Assembly: GCF_025766255.1 (NCBI RefSeq)
Contig: NW_026516864.1
Coordinates: 1 to 53,974, forward strand
Source: Zychaea mexicana
Lineage: Eukaryota; Mucoromycota; Mucoromycetes; Mucorales; Lichtheimiaceae
Length of the DNA: 53,974 bases
Direction of reading: 5' to 3'
A program made the position numbers and the translations under genes. Below the pieces are notes generated by a model, which saw only the letters and a list, made by a program, of their open reading frames with translations, did no database searches and was not told where the DNA came from. Of the stretch, positions 29,942-46,950 are shown piece by piece. Every line of letters begins with the position of its first letter. Positions within the stretch are counted from its first letter, which is position 1.

Positions 29942-32900
29942 ACCAACTATGCAAGGGTGGCCTCCCTGAATGCCCGCAGCATTCTTAAAGAGGCCAACCC
30001 TACAACCCAGTCTCAATTCACTGCTCATTTACGATCCAAAACGCTTAATATAGACATACTCGCACTATAGGAAGTATCACACACACGTTCCATCTCTTTA
30101 ACCGACCATGACTTATAAAAACTTTCCTGTATTTTTTCCCGTTCTTCCTCTTGCTTTACCAGACACTGTGGGCTCGTTTGCCTCAACCCCTCTTACTTTC
30201 TTTCTAATACCTATGTGACCCCCGATCAATGTTGTATTGTCTCCGATATTTGTACCTCACATGGGGCTCTATGTCGTCTGGTGGTGATATACGCCTACGC
30301 GGATGCACACCGTCGACCAGAGTTTTTTTCTTCTCTCCTTACCTTGCCATGTTTTAGATTTTTTACGGACTCCACCATCATTGTGGGCGATTTCAACTTG
30401 CACCTTCATGAAACCGTCCCTACTGGTATTCGCCCATGGACACAATTTCTGCTTGATCGTTGCGTCAACTGTCTTTACCTAGACGATAGCGACATCTTAT
30501 CACCCCCAACAGCTACCCCTACGTTTTCACGAGGGAAGCACCGCACGACTATTGACTATATGTTTGCTCATACGGCACTACGCTCCCACATCATCCGAAC
30601 CACGCAACAACTCACCAACCCAGCATGGACCGATCACGATATGCTCATGCTTGACTTGAGGACTCGCAACATCAACTGTGGCCCAGAAACATGGCGTTTC
30701 AACCCCCTTTTACTCGAACATGAAGACTATCAGTTACTCTTGCGGGAGTCTCTTAAAACTTTCTTTGACTATACCTCCAACGGCACCACCTCACCACAAG
30801 CGGAATGGGACCAGCTCAAGAATGTTATTAAGGAGTCCGCTCTCTAATTCAGTCGCTCGCTCAGTCGCTATACCAAGAACCGCCTGTCCGCTCTCCATCG
30901 CCAATGACAACAACACCTATTCAGTCCAACACCCACCTCTCGATCGACCCTCCCAGCACTTGAACGAGAAATCGCCCAGATCAATGAAGCCAAAACTCGT
31001 CAATTATTGCTACGCACAGCTACTTGCTGGCACGAGGAAGGCAAACGTAACAACAAGTATCTCTTCCGAGTGCTACGTGAGCGCCACAATACAGCTACTA
31101 TTCAACAATTGCGTGATCCCGCCACGGGCGCACAGTTCTTTACCTCCGAGGATATCCTTCGCCATGCTCAGTCTTTCTATACCAACCTGTTCGCGCCGGA
31201 GCCGGTATCACCTCCTGCAATTGATAGCCTCCTCAGCAATGTCCCGGAAGACGCTCGGCTTTCTGAATCACAACAAACCAGACTAACCACCCCTTTCACA
31301 ATGTCGGAGCTGGTCCTCATGTTGAAACACACTCCACTTGGAAAAAGTCCTAGCCTTGATGGTTTGCCATTTGAGCTTTACCGCCACCTCGCATCCCACG
31401 ACGGCTTCATCCAGCTGCTTCTCTCTGTACTTAATGGAGCACTTGGAGAACAACTTTTCCCGGACTCTTGGATGAAAATCCGAATTATCTTACTCTTCAA
31501 GAAAGGAGATCCACAATTACTGTCCAACTGGCGACCACTCTCCCTCATTAACTCGGACGCCAAAATCTTCACGAACCTACTGGCAAATCGCTTACAACCA
31601 ATGATGAACACGATCATTAATCCATTCCAGATTGGGTTCCTCGCCAACCACTTGATTTCTGACTACGGCTGGACGGTGCAGAATATCATGAGTCATGCGC
31701 ACAAAATTGAATCGACACAGGAACCAGTTGGCGTATTAATCGATCAAACAAAAGCTTATGATATGGTAAACAGTGAGTATCTCAAACAAACCATGGCAAG
31801 GTTTGGACTTCCCTTTTCTTTCATTGACTCTATTGTATCTCTCTTCTTCTCTACCTCCATTTTTCTTTCTCTTAACAGCTGGCTCTCTGAGCCAGTTCGT
31901 CAGCTTCGAGGTTTGCACCAAGGGGACCCATTTTCCCCATTACTCTTTAATACTGCTTTTGAACCCCTCCTTCTCTCCCTTCTTTCTGATTCCCTTCTAC
32001 TCGGAGCACCCTTGGCGCCACTCCCCCCTCGAAGCAGCACTCATTTACACACCATTAGTCTAGTAAGAGAGTATCCACCAATCAAAATACTTGCCTATGT
32101 GGACGACCTTTTGGTCTTCCTACACGGTATTGACGAGTAGGACTGATTGCTGACCCACATCAACACATACGGCCGTGCATCCAATGGACGCATCAACCTC
32201 AACAAAACCGTGGTGTTCTCTTTGTCTGGAAAAGCTCATCAACGGTGGATCTCACGCGTTGAAACGCTTGGCGCTCGCTGGCACGACAGCACCTCACCCC
32301 AAATGCTAACATACCTCGGGTATCCATTGTACAACAATCCACACCAGCTCGCATCTTTCTTGGATAATCTCTACACCATATTGCTCTACTAAAACAACGC
32401 CATCTCTCTATCCAAGCAGAATCTATAGTTGCCAACTCACTGCTACTCTCTCGACTATGGCATGTCCTCCGCGTGTGTATCGTCCTGGTCGAGTGGTTAC
32501 AGAAATGTCAAAACTTAATTCGACAATACCTGCTCCCTTTCTTCCCTTTCCCTCGCTGGGGTCATGTATGCGCGCCCCGGCCCCAGGGAGGAGTAACCCT
32601 TAATAATAGATAAATCCTTAATAGTGTTAACTTTAAAAGATTAATAGTTTAAAAATATATAATGTTAATTCTTTTAATTGATAAATCATTTAATGATTAA
32701 AACCTTTAAAGATTAAACGTTATATCTTTTATAGATTAAAACAACCCCCCGGAATGGTAATGAGGATACCTAAGTTACAGTAGTAACTTGCTCTCCTCCT
32801 CCAAGTGCTTAAGTCCTTGACTTACGCACGTACTGGCTTGGTTACTTGTCCAAGGAACAAGTAACTTATATCCTTTTAAAAATTCTCTATAAAAAAATTT

Positions 32901-34540: not shown

Positions 34541-35475
34541 GAGCATTTGGACCAACTGTTGACTATTGCAGAGGTAGTTAATACCTGTCATTGTCACTCA
34601 AGAAGTGCTGTTTTGGTTACCAAGAAACGAAGATCTTTAGGCATATTGTTGGTCAAGATGGGTTTTCCATATACACGGCGAAGGTAGACAAGATCGTTAG
34701 GTGGCTGGCACTTATATATGTTAACGGAACTCAACCGGTTTCTAGGTACAATTTCCTACTACTATCGCTGTTACTGCCTAGATTTCAGCGAGAAGGTTGC
34801 TGTGCTGAATCATTTAAAAAAGAAGAATGTTCTGTTTATGTGGGGCTGGGAAGAACAAAGCTCATTTGAGCAATGCAAGGAATTGCTGACAAAGGGTCCT
34901 ATTCTCATCCATCTGGATTATACCCATGAATTTTATCTATTCTGTGATGCATCGATCTAGTCACTGGGAGTGGTCCTCACCCAACAATCGCCAAATGAAG
35001 ACAGTGTATATTTGCCTGTATATTTCGGAAGCCGTGCCTTGACAGATGCCAAGAAGAAATTCTCTATATATGAGCTTGAGATGCTCTCTATAGTGCTCTT
35101 CATACATTTCTTTCGATTGTACAACATTAATCGACATATTCATATTATTTAAGATTAAAATGCTTTGTCGTTTTTAGCAAATAGCTTAAAAGAAGAAACA
35201 TCGCCCAGAGTTTCCTAATGGTCAATGACACTTTCTATGTACGACTTCACAGTACATTACAAGCCTGTCTCATGTAATGTGGTCGCGGATGCAATATCAA
35301 GACTCTCAGAAATGGTCCCAGACAAGGTATTGGTAGAAGATGTGATCGTGGACGCCTATTTGCCTCTCTTCATGTTACAAGAGGAACAACTAAGAAAGTA
35401 ACAAGCCCTAGTACCAGAAGAGTTCTAGGGAGGCATGGATACACGGCGATACAAGGCGATTCTGCACTACCTCAG
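34541..35475 (+). pseudogene. gypsy-2 RT end and RNase H
   Basis: Second Ty3/gypsy relic, on the plus strand. It reads LKKCCFGYQETKIFRHIVG, LNRFLGTISYYYRCY, LLTKGPILIHLDYTHEFYLFCDAS (RNase H start), FGSRALTDAKKKFSIYELEML and VVADAISRLSE. Several stops and frame changes are present (for example the stop after CDASI at 34958). It is not a copy of gypsy-1: the residues differ throughout. It continues after the d1-d2 insertion at 40815. Confidence 0.85.
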
Positions 35476-35500
35476 GGGACCGGCCATGGTTATGATAGTT
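35476..35500. repeat. Left end of d1 with CGGCCA and ATGGTTAT motifs
   Basis: CGGCCA at 35481-35486 overlaps ATGGTTAT at 35486-35493. The same two motifs recur at the d1 right end and at both ends of d2. They look like iterons, short binding sites for a Rep or transposase; the role is inference. Confidence 0.6.
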
Positions 35501-35668
35501 TTAATGCGATCTAATAGCCATATATGGTTTATAAGCTAAGGTATGCTAGGATAGCTAAAGTAATTTTTATTAAAATAATTTATTCACAAATGTCTTAGCA
35601 TGCATAATTTAAAAATTTTAAAATAATAAAAATTGAATTTTGAATAAATATAAAAAGAGCATCCTACA

Positions 35669-36637
35669 ATGATTCAAACACCTGCAAATGATGTTGTATT
35701 TAATAATGATAAAATTGTTATTGATACAAAAAAATTACAAAATTATTTATCTAAATATAATATTAATATAAAAAACTTTTGTGAAGAAAATATACATGAA
35801 AAATATAATATTGAATATATAGAGAAAAAAAATAAATTAAATATTAAAAGAAAAGCGTCTGAAAAATAAAAATCAGCGTCCAAATCAAATTTAAAAAATT
35901 CTAATGATCAAAAATATAATAATAATATAATTAAAAAAGTTGGAAATCTAAGAAAAGAGAATTATGAACTAAAAAAGAAATGTAACATATATGATAATTA
36001 TTACGCAAAAATAGATGAAGAAGATTTAAAAAATAAAAATTCTCAGGAAGAATTAACAAATAAGGAGGAGATGTCTTATGAAAATTCTCAGGAAAATATA
36101 ATCTCTGAGAATATACCAGTTAGAAAACAAGATTCTCAGGATATATATCCTGAAAATTCAAATTCTCAGGAATCCTCAATTCCTCATATTTCCGAAGCAA
36201 TGTTAGATGGTAACACCTCTAGTGCGGTTACCTCACAGGGTGGACTAATTAATAGTGAAGATGAGGAATGTCAATTTTATTGCTTAGAGCCATGTGATAA
36301 TTGTAATGAGAAATTATGGAATACATATCAATGTAACTTTGCAAATGATGTAATAGAAAAACTCGAAAAGGAAAAACATAAATATAAAATGTTCTTTACA
36401 AGATATTTTAGTTACTATACTGATTTAATAAAAGCTAAAGAGTTAAATAGGAACGATATCATGCAAGCATGCCAAGATAAGTTACAAGAACTGATTCAAC
36501 AATATATACAATTATACATTGAAGAACATGAAAGTAGTAGTGAATATAAATATAACTGGGCAAGTAAACGAAAGGTTGATACAGTCAGTTTCAATATGAG
36601 ATTTTTTAATAAGCAAATAAGTAAGAAATTAATTTAG
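35669..36637 (+). pseudogene. d1 ORF1, related at its ends to the d2 Rep gene; core missing
   Basis: Frame runs 35669-36637 with one in-frame TAA at 35867. The N-terminal part is Lys/Asn-rich with a coiled-coil look (VGNLRKENYELKKKC). A block IPHISEAMLDGNTSSAVTSQGG matches NPQFSEAMLENTSGADSLQGG just ahead of the HUH region of d2. The C-terminal 33 residues (KYNWASKRKVDTVSFNMRFF and so on) are almost identical to the d2 C-terminus, also in DNA. No HUH motif or Walker A is found; instead a Cys-containing stretch (FYCLEPCDNCNEKLW) lies between. It may be a Rep gene whose catalytic core was replaced, or a separate accessory protein. Confidence 0.7.
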
Positions 36638-38118
36638 AGCTGAATACCATGTGTGGCCATATATTCATGTAGCATTTCCCGGGAATTAATCTTATCAACT
36701 GTTAACCAACTATTATCCTTTACACTATATCCAACCCACTTAACCTCAAATATGTACTTATTATCAGTATACACATGTCCTACAATCTTCTCAATTTCAT
36801 ATGAATTACTATGTTCTATATTTCTCTGTTCTCTTTGATTTTTTCTCTTGCGTTTAGATGTATTATTTTCAGTTTCGTCCTCACTATCTATAGCCATATC
36901 CATTGATTGATTAATGTTAAGCTGTAGAAATTTCTGCTGCATGTCAACCATTTCGTTATATTCAGTATTTACTTTTTGCTCATTTGAAAATACTAAGTCA
37001 AGTTTGTTTTTCTTACTTGGGAATTCAAGATCTTTTCCATACCATAATTTATGATGTAATTGTACCTCTATATTATACTTGTTTACAAATCGCCATATAT
37101 TAGTAAGAATACAAGCAACACGAAGCTGAATATTATAATATCTTATATCGGTTATTTGCAATGCTGCACGATTATTATTAAATCGTTCAAATTTAGAGCC
37201 TAACATAGAGAACTGTGCTTCTATTGCTGAACGAAATGATCCAAACTTGTTATTAAAGTATGTCTCATTGATTGTTAACTTTTGTCCTGGTTCTTTTCTT
37301 ATGGGATGTAAAAAATTACGATCATAAAAACTATATCCAGCATCTGTTGCATTATCTTTAAACTTTTGTATAAATAAGTTATATCCACCATCCATTCCTA
37401 AACAATCTGCCTCACTTATTTTTTTATATAGTTTCATATTAATAAACATAGTACTATCATTTCCGATAGCACATTTTTCAGATACTGAAACATGTGTAAT
37501 TATTTCATCCATATCCTGTATAACTTGTGTACGTACAGCTGGCCCTTTTAATTTATATGAATATAACTGTGAATGTGACTCATTTGGTTTATGATACTTT
37601 ATTTTACTATCATATCCATCAATAAATAGTGTAACATTCTTAAAACCATCTGGATTGTTTATTATTGCTGATAGAATGCGAATACGTGGTGATGAGAACA
37701 TACTATCTAGATCTTGTTTTACCTTTTTATTCAATTCATTATAGTTAGTAATCCAGAACCGCTTATATAAATCATAAAATGTTGCATATGGCATAACAGT
37801 ATACATATCCTTTCCTGATACACCTGATACGATATGATATAATAATGCAAGTCCTTTTTCAATCTCGCGGTATGGCCCTGGATATTCAATATTTCCATAT
37901 AAAACTGTAAGAAAATAAAATACAGGTATAAATCCAAATCTATTAAGTAATACATCCTTTATATCATTTATTGTATTATTCTTCATATCTTTAATAGCTG
38001 TTCTATGATTAAATCTATGTTGCATTTCAGGCCAAGATTTATCAAGAAAAGTCCATTTATTATCAATTAAATTTTTAATTTCAATATCGAGTTGTTCAGT
38101 GTGTTGTGTTGTGTTCAT
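36634..38118 (-). CDS. DDE transposase with C-terminal chromodomain, intact
   Basis: 494 aa without a break. The core resembles the DDE_4/Harbinger type: Asp167 in LFIDGYDSK, Asp243 in LGMDGGYNLF and Glu300 in RSAIEAQFSMLGSKF, each in the expected local setting, with 56 residues between the last two. No N-terminal zinc finger or myb domain is seen. A basic linker (KRKRKNQREQR, about 422-432) leads to a chromodomain at about 440-480 with the aromatic cage pattern YEIEKIVGH, YIFEVKWVGY, NSWL. Chromodomains of this kind bind methylated histone H3 in integrases of Ty3/gypsy chromoviruses; here it could guide insertion into silent chromatin, which would fit its landing in a dead gypsy element. It is convergent with ORF1 and overlaps its stop. 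Confidence 0.85.
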   Translation of the reverse strand: MNTTQHTEQLDIEIKNLIDNKWTFLDKSWPEMQHRFNHRTAIKDMKNNTINDIKDVLLNRFGFIPVFYFLTVLYGNIEYPGPYREIEKGLALLYHIVSGVSGKDMYTVMPYATFYDLYKRFWITNYNELNKKVKQDLDSMFSSPRIRILSAIINNPDGFKNVTLFIDGYDSKIKYHKPNESHSQLYSYKLKGPAVRTQVIQDMDEIITHVSVSEKCAIGNDSTMFINMKLYKKISEADCLGMDGGYNLFIQKFKDNATDAGYSFYDRNFLHPIRKEPGQKLTINETYFNNKFGSFRSAIEAQFSMLGSKFERFNNNRAALQITDIRYYNIQLRVACILTNIWRFVNKYNIEVQLHHKLWYGKDLEFPSKKNKLDLVFSNEQKVNTEYNEMVDMQQKFLQLNINQSMDMAIDSEDETENNTSKRKRKNQREQRNIEHSNSYEIEKIVGHVYTDNKYIFEVKWVGYSVKDNSWLTVDKINSREMLHEYMATHGIQL

Positions 38119-38233
38119 TTTTATTTGTTGTTATGTACTTTAAACAATCGCTCTTTTTTTTCTCATGGGAGGCTACCGATATAAATAAAAAAATTCAATT
38201 TTTATTATTTTTATTGTAAATCAATAATTAATT

Positions 38234-38258
38234 CGGTCACTGATGGTTATACCGGTCA
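38234..38258. repeat. Iteron-like motifs near the right end of d1
   Basis: CGGTCA (38234-38239), ATGGTTAT (38243-38250), CGGTCA (38253-38258), eight bases before the stem-loop. The matching d2 motifs are at 40722-40746. Confidence 0.6.
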
Positions 38259-38266
38259 TAGCAATT

Positions 38267-38298
38267 TTATTATCTATATTACAGCTAGTAGATTATAA
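38267..38298. promoter_or_regulatory. Origin-like stem-loop of d1 with TATTAC at the loop
   Basis: Arms TTATTATCTA and TAGATTATAA pair at 9 of 10 positions. The 12-nt loop begins TATTAC (38277-38282). In CRESS-DNA replicons the Rep nicks in a hairpin-borne nonanucleotide ending TATTAC; here the nonamer is CTATATTAC, one base off the NANTATTAC consensus. Its place next to repeated motifs, 28 bp from the element end, is the same in d2. Confidence 0.65.
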
Positions 38299-38604
38299 TT
38301 GGTTAGACAACTAATAGTAGGACGCCAATTTTAAATATTCAGGGGACCGGCCATGGTTATAATGATTTTAATGCAATTTAGTAACCCTAGCTGGCTTATT
38401 AGCTAAGATATATCAGGATAGCCAAATTAATTTTTACTGAAATAATTCATGTATGTATGTCTTGGCATGTATACATTTAAATTTTTGAAAAAAATAAAAA
38501 TTGATTTTTTTTTAATATAAAAATAATACTACAGAATATAAAGCAAAATATATTTGTTATATTTTTTTAGCACTCCAACAAAACTACCCCAATAAAAATA
38601 CAAC

Positions 38605-40712
38605 ATGGACCATATGAACCTCCTCATATTTATTGCCATTATGGCTGAATTTATTCCTATTTTAGGAATAACATTGACGCTCTTAATAGAAAGAGCAAAG
38701 CATCTTGCTGAACATCATCAAGATGTTAGTGAAAAAACAATTGCTGACCAACTAAGGGTCGAACTCGAAAAGGACCTCAAAAAGGCTAACATAACAAAGG
38801 AAGTAAGGGACGAGAACCGTACTGCAATAATGGGACGGGTTAGGGCTTTTGCAAAATTCCTCAAATCCTCAAATCCTCAATTTTCCGAAGCAATGTTAGA
38901 AAACACCTCTGGTGCAGATTCCTTGCAGGGCGGCAAAAAATTCCGATTCCAAAACACTAAAGGACTATTACATATATTTGTAAGGACTTCCATTTAACAA
39001 AAGAACAAGTCATGGAATGGTTTATAAAACATGAACGTATTGGTTATCGAATTGAAAAGGCAATTGCATGCGATGAAATTGCACCAGAAACTGGTGAGAA
39101 ACATGTTCATATATAGATACAAATGAATGAGCGGTTCGACACAAAAACAGCACGTAAATTCTTTACTATCGATGGTGTTACTCCAAATATGAAACCAGGT
39201 GGTAGTCCACAAAAGTCCATTAGCTACTGTATGAAAGGAAAAGATTATATTTGTTATAATATGGATCCAAATTATGAAGTTAAGACCAGAAAAATGCATC
39301 AACAGTTACTTGGATATCAATTAATTACGAAGCAGCTTAATATGCGGAAGGCTACCGAAATATATCCCGAATTGCTATGGAAATATGATACTGTGAAATC
39401 AAATTTAAATTCTTACTTTCATGATGCCGATATGGAAAATAACCCTGGAGATAAATTACATATGTGGTCTATGTTTGGGATTGAAACAATGTTTGGTGGT
39501 AAAAATAAGATACCACAATACTGGATTGTAGGTCCATCAAATGTAGGTAAGACATATAACATTGATGTATTAGAACAAGGTAGCCATCGAGCATATCTAA
39601 TGAATAAAGAAAATGATTGGTCAGATTATAAGGATGATGATTATGATTTTATGTATAATGAAGAAACAGGTTCTGATTTCAAATTAACATTTTTAAACCA
39701 AATGCTAGAAGGAACACGATTAAAACTTAATGGCAAATTTACAAAGTCAATAACTAAAAAGAAAAATATGCCAATAATACTGAATAGTAACTATATGCCG
39801 CATATGTTATATAAAAATAAATCAGTATATGAGTTAGAGCCAACACTCAATCGTTTATATATTATCTATGTTGATAAGAACCGTAAAGGTCATATAATAT
39901 GGAATCCATACATAATGAAAGTGAAGGATTATGAAAATAAATTCATGTATTATGAAAACATGGATATGTATGAGGACTTATACAAAGATGAATTCGAAAA
40001 CGAATACCAAGATCAGCATACATTTATCCGTTATGTACATAATAGTGGTCAGGATGGTATTAAAAAATATACACCAATGGATAAAACAGTAGAGGAACTA
40101 CAAGAATTAGCTGATACAGAAGAATATATGAAGGAATAAGAAGAAAAACATAATAGTAATAATACACAGAACAATAAACAACATAAACCGCCTCAACAAA
40201 ATAATAGAGGATGGTCAACTGTAAAGGTACCATCATCAGCAGATTGTATGCATTGGGAAGATGTGTCTAATGATATAAAATGTGATGATGTTGTAAATGA
40301 TACTACTGATTGGGAAAACCCACCAGAAGATATAGAGAAACATAAATACATAGATGTAAGTACATCTGAATCAGAGAAAAGCAGTGACTGCAACATACCA
40401 AATAATATACCAAAACGTAAAAAGAAAAAAAGACACAATAAAAATAAATAGAGAAACAAGCAAATAGTAGAAGAAATACAGCCAAAAGATTATTTTAAAA
40501 AGCATAAGGATATAAAACAGGCTATAATAGATGATATAGATATAACAAAAGAAACTGACGTCAAAAATAAACCAACAGATACTAATATAAGTACAAGTAT
40601 AACTAATGAATGCATAAAACATAAATATAATTGGGCAAGTAAACGAAAGGTTGATACGGTCAGTTTCAATATGAGATTTTTTAATAAGCAAATAAGTAAG
40701 AAATTAATTTAG
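38605..40712 (+). pseudogene. Rolling-circle Rep-like protein (HUH endonuclease plus SF3 helicase), broken
   Basis: The N-terminal ORF (38605-38997) is a helical region of unknown type ending in SEAML...LQGG and a stretch that leads into Rep motif I. A frameshift near 38965 falls inside motif I. In the next frame: an LTKEQ segment, the HUH motif HVH (39102-39110), and motif III YCMK (Tyr codon 39225-39227, Lys 39234). The helicase part has Walker A GPSNVGKT (39531-39554), an acidic Walker B-like NEETGSDF and motif C ILNSNYMP (about 39776-39800). In-frame stops are at 39114, 40137 and 40449. The C-terminal tail is basic and matches d1 ORF1. Motif order and type are those of CRESS-DNA (geminivirus/circovirus-like) Reps. 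The copy is inactive as it stands. Confidence 0.85.
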
Positions 40713-40721
40713 AGCTGAATT

Positions 40722-40746
40722 CGGCCACTGATGGTTATACCGGTCA
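40722..40746. repeat. Iteron-like motifs near the right end of d2
   Basis: CGGCCA (40722-40727), ATGGTTAT (40731-40738), CGGTCA (40741-40746). Same order and spacing as in d1; the left end of d2 has CGGCCA (38348-38353) and ATGGTTAT (38353-38360). Confidence 0.6.
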
Positions 40747-40754
40747 TAGCAATT

Positions 40755-40786
40755 TAATTATCTATATTACAGCTAGTAGATTATAA
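40755..40786. promoter_or_regulatory. Origin-like stem-loop of d2 with TATTAC at the loop
   Basis: Arms TAATTATCTA and TAGATTATAA pair at 8 of 10 positions; loop begins TATTAC (40765-40770). Same position relative to iterons (8 nt) and element end (28 nt) as in d1. Confidence 0.65.
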
Positions 40787-40818
40787 TGGGTTAGACAACT
40801 AATAGTAGGACGCCTCAG

Positions 40819-41251: not shown

Positions 41252-43260
41252 TTAAAAATAATCTTTAATAATTTGTTTTTTATAAAAATCATTTTCTTTA
41301 ACCCAAGAATTATCATTATTATCATAACCTTTCCATTTAACAAAAAAGGAATATTTATTATCTTCTATTTTATGTTCAATTATGTTTTCTATTTCATATA
41401 TATTATCATCTTTATTTAGGTTTCTCATATTTTCTATTTTTTTATTTGATTTATATAATCTTTTTCTTCTTTTTTTAATAACTTTTTTTAATTCAGGATA
41501 GTCTAAATCACTTTCTTCAGTTATATTATTTTCATTTTCATTGTCATTATTATTATTATTAGTAGAATTTATATTTTCATCAATAATCATATTTTCATTT
41601 ATATCTAATTTTTAAAAATCATTTTGTATTTCTGTTAATATTTTAAATTTATTAATCTGTTTCATTTCATTATTATAACCAATATCAATTAATCTATCTT
41701 CTTATGGAAAATCAAAGTTATCAGTTTTCCATAATTTATAATATTCTTCTGTAATAATATTAAATGTATTTGAAAATTTTTCTATATTTTTTAATAAAAA
41801 TGCTACTTTGATTTGTAAATTTACATATTTAATATCATCTGTCTTTAATGTTGAGTTATTATTACTAAATCTTTTAAACTTATTAAATAATTCTTGAAAT
41901 TGATTTTCTATTTTACTTCTAAAACTTCTAAAGACTTTATTATAATATATTTCTTGTTCATTTAATTTTTCATTTACTTCTTTTCTAATTGGATAGAAAA
42001 AGTCATTATCATATATATCATATCCTTTATTATTGCATAGATCTTCAAATTGTTTTATAAATAAGGTGTAACCTCCACCAACAGCTATACAATCTTGCTT
42101 TAAAATTTTATTATATGATTTCATATTTAAAAACATCATACCATTATTAACTTTTCTACATAAATCACTATAAGATATATATATTACCATATCATTTATA
42201 TCTGAAACAACTTATGTTCTAATACTAGAACTTTTTAATTTATATGACCACCGTTTTTGTATTGATATATTTGGTTTATTGTAAGAAATAGAGCTATCAT
42301 GTCCATCTAATAATAGTGTAATATTTTTAAAATTTTTAGGGTTTTTAATTAATGCTGATAAAATTCTTATTTTCATATTTGAGAACATATCTAATAGATA
42401 ATAATTAACTTTTTTATTTAACGAATCATAATTTGCAATCCAAAATTTTTTATAAAATACATAAAAGCTAGTATATAGAATATATTTTTTTATATCTTTA
42501 CTAGTATATCCAGATGTTAAATGAAATATTAACATTAAACCTTTTTTGATTTCTATATATAGTGATGGGTATTCAATATTTGAATATAAATTATTTAAGA
42601 AAAAAAATATACTTGTAATGAATAAACAATAAATTATATATATTTTTTTAATTCTAATTTAAAAAAAGGTGTTGTTAATGTTAATTTACTCGTAATGGCT
42701 CGACACCCCATCGACCATTACCTCTATATATCATAATCAAGCAACCGTCGTCCAAGTATTCCTAGGTTGAGAGGGGATATGCTCATTACCATTCCGCCAA
42801 TCATATATTAAAAAAAACTATTTTTATTTATTATAAAACTTTTTATCCATTATAAATAATAACTGAATGGAATTACTTTTTTAAAATGGTAAAAAATAAT
42901 AATAAATTTTAATAAATAAAATAATAATAAATAATTTTAGATTTTATTTAATTCTTAAATTATATTTAGTATCTTAGATATATATCTAAAAAATATTGAA
43001 ATTTTCATTCAAAATACTAAATTATACCTTTTTTATTAAATATAAAATAATCCTATATTCTATTATTTTTGATTATTCATCTATATAACCTAATTTTTGT
43101 AATAAATCTTCTTTTACTTCATCTATAGATTTTATATTTTTTATTTCAGTTCTATGCTTATATTTATAATTTATAATTTTCCAGTTTTCATTTAAAAAAG
43201 ACCATTGATTTAAAACTAATTTATTAATCTCATCTTTTAATTCATTTTTTAAAGTTTATT
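41252..43260 (-). pseudogene. Older copy of the chromodomain DDE transposase
   Basis: Pieces from the N-terminus: about 43260-43070 (INKLVLNQWSFLNENWK, matching the start of the d1 protein), then 42620-42212 (GYTSKDIKKYILYTSFY; LLLDGHDSSISYNKPN with the first Asp), 42190-41702 (IAVGGGYTLF, where the second catalytic Asp has become Gly; FRSKIENQFQELFNKFKRF with the Glu), and 41590-41252, ending in a chromodomain (YEIENIIEHKIEDNKYSFFVKWKGY, NSWV). Frame breaks lie between pieces and about 450 bp are inserted at 42620-43070. The protein is Asn/Lys-rich, reflecting extreme AT bias. Confidence 0.85.
42620..43070. repeat. Insertion in the older transposase, with a GC-richer hairpin island
   Basis: It splits the transposase relic between its N-terminal segment and NIEYP. 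Most of it is A/T, but 42685-42800 is much richer in G and C and holds the hairpin GTAATGGCTCGA-caccccA-TCGACCATTAC (about 42692-42721). It could be a non-coding RNA gene, an origin-like hairpin or the core of a MITE. I recognise no family. Confidence 0.45.
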
Positions 43261-44339: not shown

Positions 44340-46950
44340 AATAGCATAGGCACAATGTTGCACACAAGAGATTTTTTGAGTTGATTCACCGATGGGATAA
44401 GTCATGTTCAGTAGAATGAGCACTATGTTGGCCCTACAATCGAGATATGTCATGGTCGAGCGAAGAAATAGCATAGGCACAATGTTGCACACAAGAGATT
44501 TTTTGAGTTGATTTACCGATGGGATAAGTCATGGTCGGTAGAATGAGCACTATATTGGCCCTATAATCGAGATATGTCATGTTCGATCGAAGAATGGCAC
44601 AGGCACACAAGAGATTTTGGGTTCCAGTCCACTTTTTCTCGGTCCATTCCACCAACGGGATAAGTCATGGTCGGTAAAACAAACACTATGTTGGCCCTAC
44701 GATTGGGACATGTCATAGTCGAGCGAAGAAATAGCATAGGCACAATGTTGCACACAAGAGATTTTTTGAGTTTTGATTCACCGATGGGATAAGTCATGAT
44801 CAGTAGAATGAACACTATATTGGCCCTACATTTGGGACATGTCATGGTCGAGCAAAGAAATAGCATAGGCACAATGTTGCACACAAGAGATTTTTTGAGT
44901 TTTGATTCACCGATGGGATAAGTCATGGTCAGTAGAATGAGTACTATGTTGGCCCTACAATTGGAACATGTCATGTTCGATCAAAGAAATGGCACAGGCA
45001 CACAAGAGATTTTGGGTTCCAGTCCACTTTTTCTCGGTCCATTCCACCAACGGGATAAGTCATGGTCGGTAAAACAAGCACTATGTTGGCCCTACATTTG
45101 GGACATGTCATGGTCGAGCGAAGAAACAGCATAGGCACATTGTTGCGCACAAGAGATTCTTTGAGTTTTGATTCACCGATGGGATAAGTCATGGTCAGTA
45201 GAATGAGCACTATGTTGGCCCTACGATTGGGACATGTCATGGTCGATCAAAGAAATGGCACAGGCACACAAGAGATTTGAGTTCCAGTCCACTTTTTCTT
45301 GGTCCATTCCACCAACGGGATAAGTCATGGTCGGTAAAACAAGCACTATGTTGGCCCTACATTTGGGACATGTCATAGTCGAGCGAAGAAACAGCATAGG
45401 CACATTGTTGCGCACAAGAGATTCTTTGAGTTTTGATTCACCGATGGGATAAGTCATGGTCAGTAGAATGAGTACTATGTTGGCCCTACGATTGGGACAT
45501 GTCATGGTCGATCGAAGAAATGGCACAGGCACACAAGAGATTTGAGTTCCAGTCCACTTTTTCTTGGTCCATTCCACCAACGGGATAAGTCATGGTCGGT
45601 AAAACAAGCACTATGTTGGCCCTACATTTGGGACATGTCATGGTCGAGCAAAGAAACAGCATAGGCACAATGTTGCACACAAGAGATTTTTTGAGTTTTG
45701 ATTCACCGATGGGATAAGTCATGGTTGGTAAATTAAACACTATGTTGGCCCTATGATTGGGACATGTCATGGTCGAGCAAAGAAATAGCATAGGCACAAT
45801 GTTGCACACAAGAGATTTTTTAAGTTGATTCACCGATGGGATAAGTCATGGTCGGTAGAATGAGCACTATGTTGGCCCTACAATCGAGATATGTCATGGT
45901 CGAGCGAAGAAACAGCATAGGCACATTTTGTTCCACATGAGACGGTAATCAGGACGAGATCCGTTCCTTGGTGTGCCTATGCTGTTTCTTCGCTCGACCA
46001 TGACATGTCCCAAATGTAGGGCCAATATAGTGTTTAATTTACCGACCATGACTTATCCCATCGATGAATCAAAACTCAAAAAATCTCTTGTGTGCAACAT
46101 TGTGCCTATGCTGTTTCTTTGCTCGACCATGACATGTCCCAAATGTAGGGCCAACATAGTGCTTGTTTTACCGACCATGACTTATCCCGTTGGTGGAATG
46201 GACCAAGAAAAAGTGGACTGGAACTCAAATCTCTTGTGTGCCTGTGCCATTTCTTCGATCGACCATGACATGTCCCAATCGTAGGGCCAACATAGTGCTT
46301 GTTTTACCGACCATGACTTATCCCGTTGGTGGAATGGACCGAGAAAAAGTGGACTGGAACCCAAAATCTCTTGTGTGCCTGTGCCATTTCTTCGATCGAA
46401 CATGACATGTTCCAATCGTAGGGCCAACATAGTGCTCATTCTACTGACCATGACTTATCCCATCGGTGAATCAAAACTCAAAAAATCTCTTGTGTGCAAC
46501 ATTGTGCCTATGCTGTTTCTTTGCTCGACCATGACATGTCCCAAATGTAGGGCCAACATAGTGTTTGTTTTACCGACCATGACTTATCCCGTTGGTGGAA
46601 TGGACTGAGAAAAAGTGGACTGGAACCCAAAATCTCTTGTGTGCCTGTGCCATTTCTTCGATTGAACATGACATATCTCGATTGTAGGGCCAACATAGTG
46701 CTCATTCTACCGACCATGACTTATCCCATCGGTGAATCAACTCAAAAAATCTCTTGTGTGTGACATTGTGCCTATGCTATTTCTTCGCTCGACCATGACA
46801 TGTCCCAATCGTAGGGCCAACATAGTACTCATTCTACTGACCATGACTTATCCCATCGGTGAATCAAAACTCAAAGAATCTCTTGTGTGCAACAATGTGC
46901 CTATGCTATTTCTTCGCTCGACCATGACATGTCCCAATTGTAGAACCGGA
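44340..46950. repeat. Large inverted satellite array (units of 126-137 bp)
   Basis: The core GGGATAAGTCATGGTCGGTA recurs 12 times in one orientation, at about 44394, 44520, 44657, 44787, 44915, 45052, 45180, 45317, 45446, 45583, 45711 and 45838. It recurs seven times inverted, at about 46048, 46176, 46311, 46448, 46576, 46716 and 46845. Two unit types alternate in places: about 128 bp (with GATTCACCGATG) and 137 bp (with CCATTCCACCAACG). The orientations meet at a unique spacer about 45930-45965, so the whole is a palindrome with arms of about 1.6 and 1.0 kb. ORFs through the array are by-products of the repeat. Confidence 0.95.

Follow-up and report, generated by a model that had tools for sequence, protein, structure and literature searches.

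A chromodomain DDE transposon family of Zychaea mexicana that carries a CRESS-type Rep between its ends

We analysed a stretch of 53,974 nucleotides of the Zychaea mexicana genome (the window), in which two adjacent elements, d1 and d2, lie next to each other in the same orientation. Their features are the following.

35472–35474, no strand: TCA on the left flank of the joint d1+d2 insertion, one of two copies of its 3-bp target duplication, read from the sequence
35475–38326, plus strand: d1, with a transposase and a non-Rep second gene, delimited by the ends common to 24 complete elements carrying Rep and transposase
35475–35656, plus strand: left end of d1, starting GGGGACC
36071–36637, plus strand: open part of the d1 second gene (188 aa), whose upstream frame is interrupted by a stop and whose final 31 codons are in common with the d2 Rep gene
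36634–38118, minus strand: open frame of the d1 transposase, 494 aa, DDE_Tnp_4 with a C-terminal chromodomain (Pfam, conserved D167, D243 and E300, structure model)
38230–38326, plus strand: right end of d1, terminating AGGACGCC
38267–38298, plus strand: candidate replication-origin hairpin of d1, loop TATTACAGCTAG, 9 of 10 stem positions paired, putative function
38327–38341, plus strand: 15-nt spacer from d1 to d2, present at seven tandem junctions genome-wide
38342–38523, plus strand: left end of d2
38605–40139, plus strand: Rep gene of d2, broken, with HUH followed by SF3; the open stretch that carries SF3 is 39123–40136
40617–40709, plus strand: C-terminal block of the Rep gene in d2, common to d1
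40718–40814, plus strand: right end of d2
40755–40786, plus strand: candidate hairpin of d2, the same as that of d1
40815–40817, no strand: TCA on the right flank of the joint d1+d2 insertion, second copy of the target duplication, read from the sequence

The first-pass annotation of this DNA had claimed that d1 and d2 are homologous at both ends, and this is the case: identity is 79% over 183 bp between the left ends and 97% over 97 bp between the right ends. It had also claimed that their plus-strand genes are related through a C-terminal block. The block itself stood up (94% identity over 31 aa between residues 158–188 of the d1 plus-strand open reading frame, at 36542–36634, and 40617–40709 in d2), but the rest of the d1 gene turned out to be mostly a different protein and not a relative of Rep. 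The element d2 is without a transposase, and its Rep gene, as it stands in the window, is disrupted by stops and a shift of frame. Both elements sit inside the decayed pol gene of a retrotransposon, which we take to be of the Ty3/gypsy type; an RT_RNaseH_2 match lies on the left side, and an integrase-like zinc-binding stretch of the same gene, read by eye, lies on the right. The outer flanks of the pair read TCA and TCA, and removal of one TCA makes the retrotransposon frame continuous across the site, this frame having other stops. The single TCA pair at the outer flanks and the restoration of the frame indicate that d1 and d2 were inserted as a single 5,340-bp block; a genome search for the corresponding empty site returned only the block's own two flanks. 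We read both elements as incomplete members of one family that have undergone recombination and were inserted jointly. Elsewhere in the window, pieces of a non-LTR-type retrotransposon are found on the plus strand at 30215–32140 (RVT_1, E = 1.1e-21, with a sub-threshold endonuclease-like part).

Complete members of the family were sought in the organism's own genome (50.3 Mb) with the ends and the proteins; fetched stretches were re-blasted and then grouped by order and orientation. The grouping drew on 79 of 101 Rep matches, 88 of 93 transposase matches, 40 scored left ends (from 113 candidates) and 40 scored right ends (from 127 candidates); re-blasting contributed a further 12 left and 10 right ends. 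Since the search scores the best candidates only, all counts of places are lower bounds. The succession left end, Rep on the plus strand, transposase on the minus strand, right end was found in at least 24 places. The full two-gene copies that the first-pass annotation had suggested looking for thus exist, one family does unite the Rep and transposase genes within a single pair of ends, and those ends are neither tied to one of the genes only nor accounted for by a chance insertion of a transposase into a Rep sequence. These 24 are places and not independent insertions, as the copies on C13 and C141 are flanked by the same sequence and two copies on C79 have one right flank in common. Sixteen of them measure 4,030–4,074 bp; some others are enlarged by insertions, the longest reaching 7,426 bp. 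A left end, a transposase and a right end make up at least three further places (d1, C112 and C223), a left end, a Rep and a right end at least another three (d2, C234 and C256), and the remaining groupings are partial. Counted from the Rep side, a convergent transposase match lies no more than 2.5 kb away from 23 of the 37 Rep matches of at least 300 aa, and several of the other 14 adjoin transposase pieces in the re-blasted stretches; for the Rep copies on C174, C68 and C140, stretches taken at estimated positions showed no right end. The Rep and transposase genes are convergent and open frames of both exist in the family, along with many broken Rep copies and a decayed tail of copies. They account for both long frames of a complete element, in which no capsid-like gene was seen.

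The transposase is the more readily classified of the two proteins. In d1 it passes the Pfam cut-offs for both DDE_Tnp_4 (PF13359, E = 7.5e-12) and Chromo (E = 9.8e-08), in agreement with the first-pass assignment, and among 45 sequences the catalytic residues D167 and E300 are invariant and D243 is present in at least 90%. In the predicted structure (pLDDT 85.5) the tail matches HP1-type chromodomains with a TMt of up to 0.89 and the core resembles Tn5 weakly; a fold search with this model returned no chain at E ≤ 0.001. The protein collection holds 70 homologues, the named ones coming from Circinella, Mucor, Phascolomyces and Linnemannia. One relative, P0032, lacks the chromodomain and falls outside the clade of the window transposase in the tree. 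The genomic copies are too similar for selection to be judged (13 copies, dS 0.012–0.066). Pieces of a second, more distant transposase occupy the minus strand at 41255–42535, just right of d2 (Chromo, E = 2.5e-10; DDE_Tnp_4 sub-threshold; 37% identity to the d1 transposase).

For the d2 Rep the profile search that had been proposed failed, Pfam giving only a sub-threshold match to RNA_helicase (E = 0.21), and the protein was identified by other means. Firstly, an open Rep copy of 703 aa consists of an N-terminal part, an HUH domain (about 114–222), an SF3 domain (about 304–400) and a long tail, and across 10 sequences H168, Y209, K212 and the Walker A residues G316-K317-T318 are invariant and H170 nearly so. 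This combination of a single-tyrosine YxxK HUH nuclease with an SF3 helicase is that of a CRESS-type Rep. Secondly, the best match in a sequence search of the PDB is itself a Rep (9pqq, E = 1.3e-6), and Gemini_AL1 of Pfam is matched below the cut-off by members of the family, at best with E = 2.3e-8 in one of 11 aligned homologues; NCBIfam and PHROGs searches gave nothing useful. Thirdly, the model of the homologue P0001, although poor overall (mean pLDDT 59.9), has a predicted fold that matches the Rep of Vientovirus FB (E = 1.3e-10) and the Rep domains of TYLCV (TMt 0.81) and wheat dwarf virus. We compared 20 Rep copies for selection, setting aside C35:287976 (ratio 1.25), which is out of register and which the pooled figures still contain. 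Against the window copy, dN/dS lies between 0.08 and 0.38 in 18 of 19 comparisons and is 0.09 and 0.11 at a dS of about 0.45; judged from these sequence comparisons, purifying selection acts on Rep. The protein collection holds 10 homologues at E ≤ 0.001, one of them named, from Rhizopus stolonifer, and homologues elsewhere are 46–58% identical. The longest contig is 4,459 bases for both the Rep relative P0002 and the transposase relative P0032, which is suggestive of one contig carrying both genes. No relatives were found in scans of viral contigs, a collection from which records of very near genomes were possibly left out.

We then considered how the elements are inserted. Their limits are sharp, with GGGGACC on the left and, in most copies, AGGACGCC on the right; the terminal match read by eye is five of seven bases (GGGGACC against GGCGTCC). 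Target duplications were assessed in 15 insertion units, derived from 13 end pairs and five further ends, with d1 and d2 merged, C13 and C141 counted once, and C79:237492 excluded since a tandem junction forms its left end; both flanks were at hand for 14 of the 24 complete places. An exact 3-bp duplication flanks nine units (TTT, ACA, CTC, ATG, ATT, TCA, CAT, CTA and AAT) and is lacking from six, while mismatched end pairs used as a control agree at 3 bp in 5 of 154 cases. Duplications of 3 bp are in keeping with a PIF/Harbinger-type DDE transposase; they fit neither a Helitron nor plain CRESS integration. The duplications in nine of 15 units make integration by the transposase likely, and it is likely that the insertion of the family is carried out by its own enzyme.

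The right end also carries a candidate origin of replication. Of 28 right ends, 25 have at a constant position a hairpin with a 10-bp stem (nine pairs in d1, ten in C262) and TATTAC in its loop, the motif being one position off NANTATTAC. The hairpin is changed in C273 and absent from both Rep-less sister-type ends (C212 and C63). An equally good hairpin arises in 8 of 2000 shuffles, a figure to be read with the motif having been found post hoc; folding of the whole right end is no better than that of shuffles (z = -0.98), and the left end has no TATTAC hairpin. A right end is joined to a left end by the same 15-nt spacer at seven places, namely d1/d2 (38327–38341), C51, C53, C79, C174, C194 and C303; a reversed control pattern of right end, spacer and left end gave no match. 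The genes flanking the seven junctions differ. The simplest explanation for these junctions is a tandem of single origin that is mobile as a whole and swaps its contents; they may also be multimers from rolling-circle copying. On one of these contigs, a minisatellite-like array with a unit around CACCACTGCTTCCTAGTGCGTCTCGAAAGCGTC lies at C79:235240–235830.

The position taken by Rep is occupied by other genes in related elements. Apart from the C-terminal block, the d1 second gene has in common with the Rep gene only an N-terminal motif (residues 34–58, about 60%). In d1 and C112 it represents a third kind of second gene, with relatives of 49–63% identity that make up separate short elements, which at C53 and C51 are tandem partners of Rep elements. 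A plain internal deletion as the sole origin of d1 is ruled out, its second gene being a different protein with its own relatives. In C212, the nearest sister of the family, the slot is filled by a small Cys-rich gene and not by Rep; identity to this sister is 82% for the transposase, 74% for the right end and 82% for part of the left end. Such a gene is convergent with at least 10 of 26 transposases outside the Rep family, and none of these 26 places has a Rep of its own, the Rep near C63 being that of a neighbouring element. This comparison used 105 of 150 Cys-rich matches and those 26 of the 93 transposase matches that were judged not to belong to the Rep family. The Cys-rich family (for example L061:976–1455), for which the best 150 of 294 candidates were scored genome-wide, has no Pfam match and is a frequent partner of transposases. 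Given the Cys-rich gene in the slot of C212, Rep probably displaced the usual second gene. With at least three unrelated fillings (Rep, Cys-rich and d1-type), the slot is exchangeable, and Rep is therefore dispensable for some members. Moreover, Rep and transposase distances are not correlated among 12 elements (Mantel test, r = 0.14, p = 0.19); in C292, Rep differs by 14–16% from the others and the transposase by merely 2–4%. This lack of correlation indicates that the modules recombine and speaks against a fixed pair.

From the 24 two-gene places, the target duplications, the selection on Rep, the hairpin, the sister with a Cys-rich gene and the properties of the two proteins we favour, with slightly better than even confidence, a DNA transposon whose copies are likely inserted by the chromodomain DDE transposase and whose CRESS-type HUH-SF3 Rep is predicted to nick and amplify an excised circle. 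The element would be freed as a circle, in which both genes would diverge from the joined ends in the ambisense layout of CRESS replicons, with the transposase in the position of the capsid gene. Rep would begin copying at the right-end hairpin, and the transposase would insert the copies; rolling-circle copying is here inferred from the type of protein, the purifying selection on it and the origin-like hairpin, and the integration step is backed by the target duplications. Against this model stand the six units with no duplication, the uncorrelated Rep and transposase distances, the off-consensus hairpin motif and the unremarkable folding of the right end, the poor overall Rep model, the transposase model with no chain at E ≤ 0.001, the variety of second genes and the broken Rep of d2. 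Such a family would have originated when Rep took over a slot that often holds the small Cys-rich protein. A more far-reaching version, which we put forward tentatively and hold at rather less than even chance, is that the element is in essence a capsid-less, ambisense CRESS-like circle with its own Rep and a hairpin origin at the joined ends, inserted by the DDE-chromodomain enzyme, the spacer tandems being traces of multimers.

Alternatively, Rep could be an accessory of transposition that binds or opens the ends, or acts in excision or gap repair, in replacement of the Cys-rich protein and with no rolling-circle replicon involved. We regard this as unlikely, yet as the most serious competitor. 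It would account for d1, C112 and C212, which carry non-Rep second proteins and must move without Rep in cis, for the ends that all types have in common and for insertions with DDE-type duplications; it accords less well with the conservation of nuclease and helicase residues alike and with the presence of the TATTAC hairpin in Rep-family ends and its absence from the Rep-less sister ends. Far less probable is that the Rep genes are remnants of an endogenised CRESS virus or plasmid that landed in a transposon and were carried as passengers. Their likeness to viral Reps and the many broken copies with their decayed tail would fit; against it stand the selection on Rep, the fixed 4.05-kb architecture of 16 of the 24 places, Rep homologues elsewhere at 46–58% identity, the lack of a capsid-like gene and the lack of relatives among the viral contigs scanned. 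An intact virus is ruled out by the last two of these observations. Finally, the idea that d1 and d2 are two unrelated elements and neighbours by chance, to which the non-Rep second gene of d1 and the seven tandem junctions of the genome might lend some colour, has practically no likelihood left given their common ends, the single TCA duplication outside the pair with the frame that continues once one TCA is removed, and the 24 complete two-gene places, which rule it out.

The transposon that we favour, with insertion by the DDE enzyme and amplification by Rep, has points in common with several known systems. PIF/Harbinger elements have a DDE_Tnp_4 transposase, a 3-bp target duplication (TWA/TNA) and two genes, the second protein being Myb/SANT-like. 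The Zychaea family resembles them in its DDE_Tnp_4 transposase, its 3-bp duplication and its two genes per element. It is unlike them in that the second protein is Rep, Cys-rich or d1-type (Pfam detected no Myb/SANT-like domain in the Rep gene or the d1 second gene), that the transposase has a chromodomain, that few terminal bases match by eye, and that the TWA/TNA preference is not seen, one of the nine duplications being of the TNA type. With CRESS-DNA viruses (redondo-, gemini- and circoviruses) it shares HUH and SF3 domains, the one tyrosine of YxxK, a candidate TATTAC hairpin and, if the element is circularised, two divergent genes. It differs from these viruses in having no capsid gene, dispersed chromosomal copies, and additional N-terminal and long C-terminal parts of Rep. 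Helitrons are likewise eukaryotic transposons with an HUH protein; they are not known to make a target duplication or to have a DDE transposase. A Helitron identity is ruled out by the 3-bp duplications and by the single-tyrosine HUH with SF3, and Kazlauskas et al. 2019 (PMC6668415) report that no link was found between Helitron and CRESS Reps.

The first-pass annotation had further held that known Rep elements do not carry a DDE transposase with a chromodomain; as a claim of novelty this goes too far in view of a geminivirus-like transposon of Tuber melanosporum described by Liu et al. 2011 (PMC3198968). That element has one interrupted Rep ORF and two transposase ORFs, one interrupted and one truncated. 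Its terminal inverted repeats measure 37 bp, no target duplication is obvious, and its repeat family counts 42 Rep genes or remnants. It is likewise a fungal repeat family with a geminivirus-type Rep and a transposase in one element, so that the Zychaea family is not the first element of this composition; the open-access literature searched yielded no other. Compared by description only, the Zychaea family differs from this precedent in the type of its transposase, in its ends and target duplication, in how well it is preserved and in its signs of selection: all ORFs of the Tuber element are damaged and its transposase type is not stated in the section that describes it, whereas the Zychaea family has open frames, DDE_Tnp_4 with Chromo, 3-bp duplications, a Rep under selection and an exchangeable second gene, and no inverted repeats comparable to the 37-bp ones. 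The sole printed precedent found is thus a damaged one and, as far as the literature searched shows, received no further study. Amplification of an excised form by Rep would mean that a DDE transposon of a eukaryote has acquired its own means of copying itself. The family would then link single-stranded DNA replicons and DNA transposons in a way that is open to test, and the sister elements, with different second genes at this position, allow the acquisition of Rep to be traced. Further along the window, the minus strand at 44561–45240 carries a tandem repeat array, the frames of which are built of the repeated unit MTCPNRRANIV...
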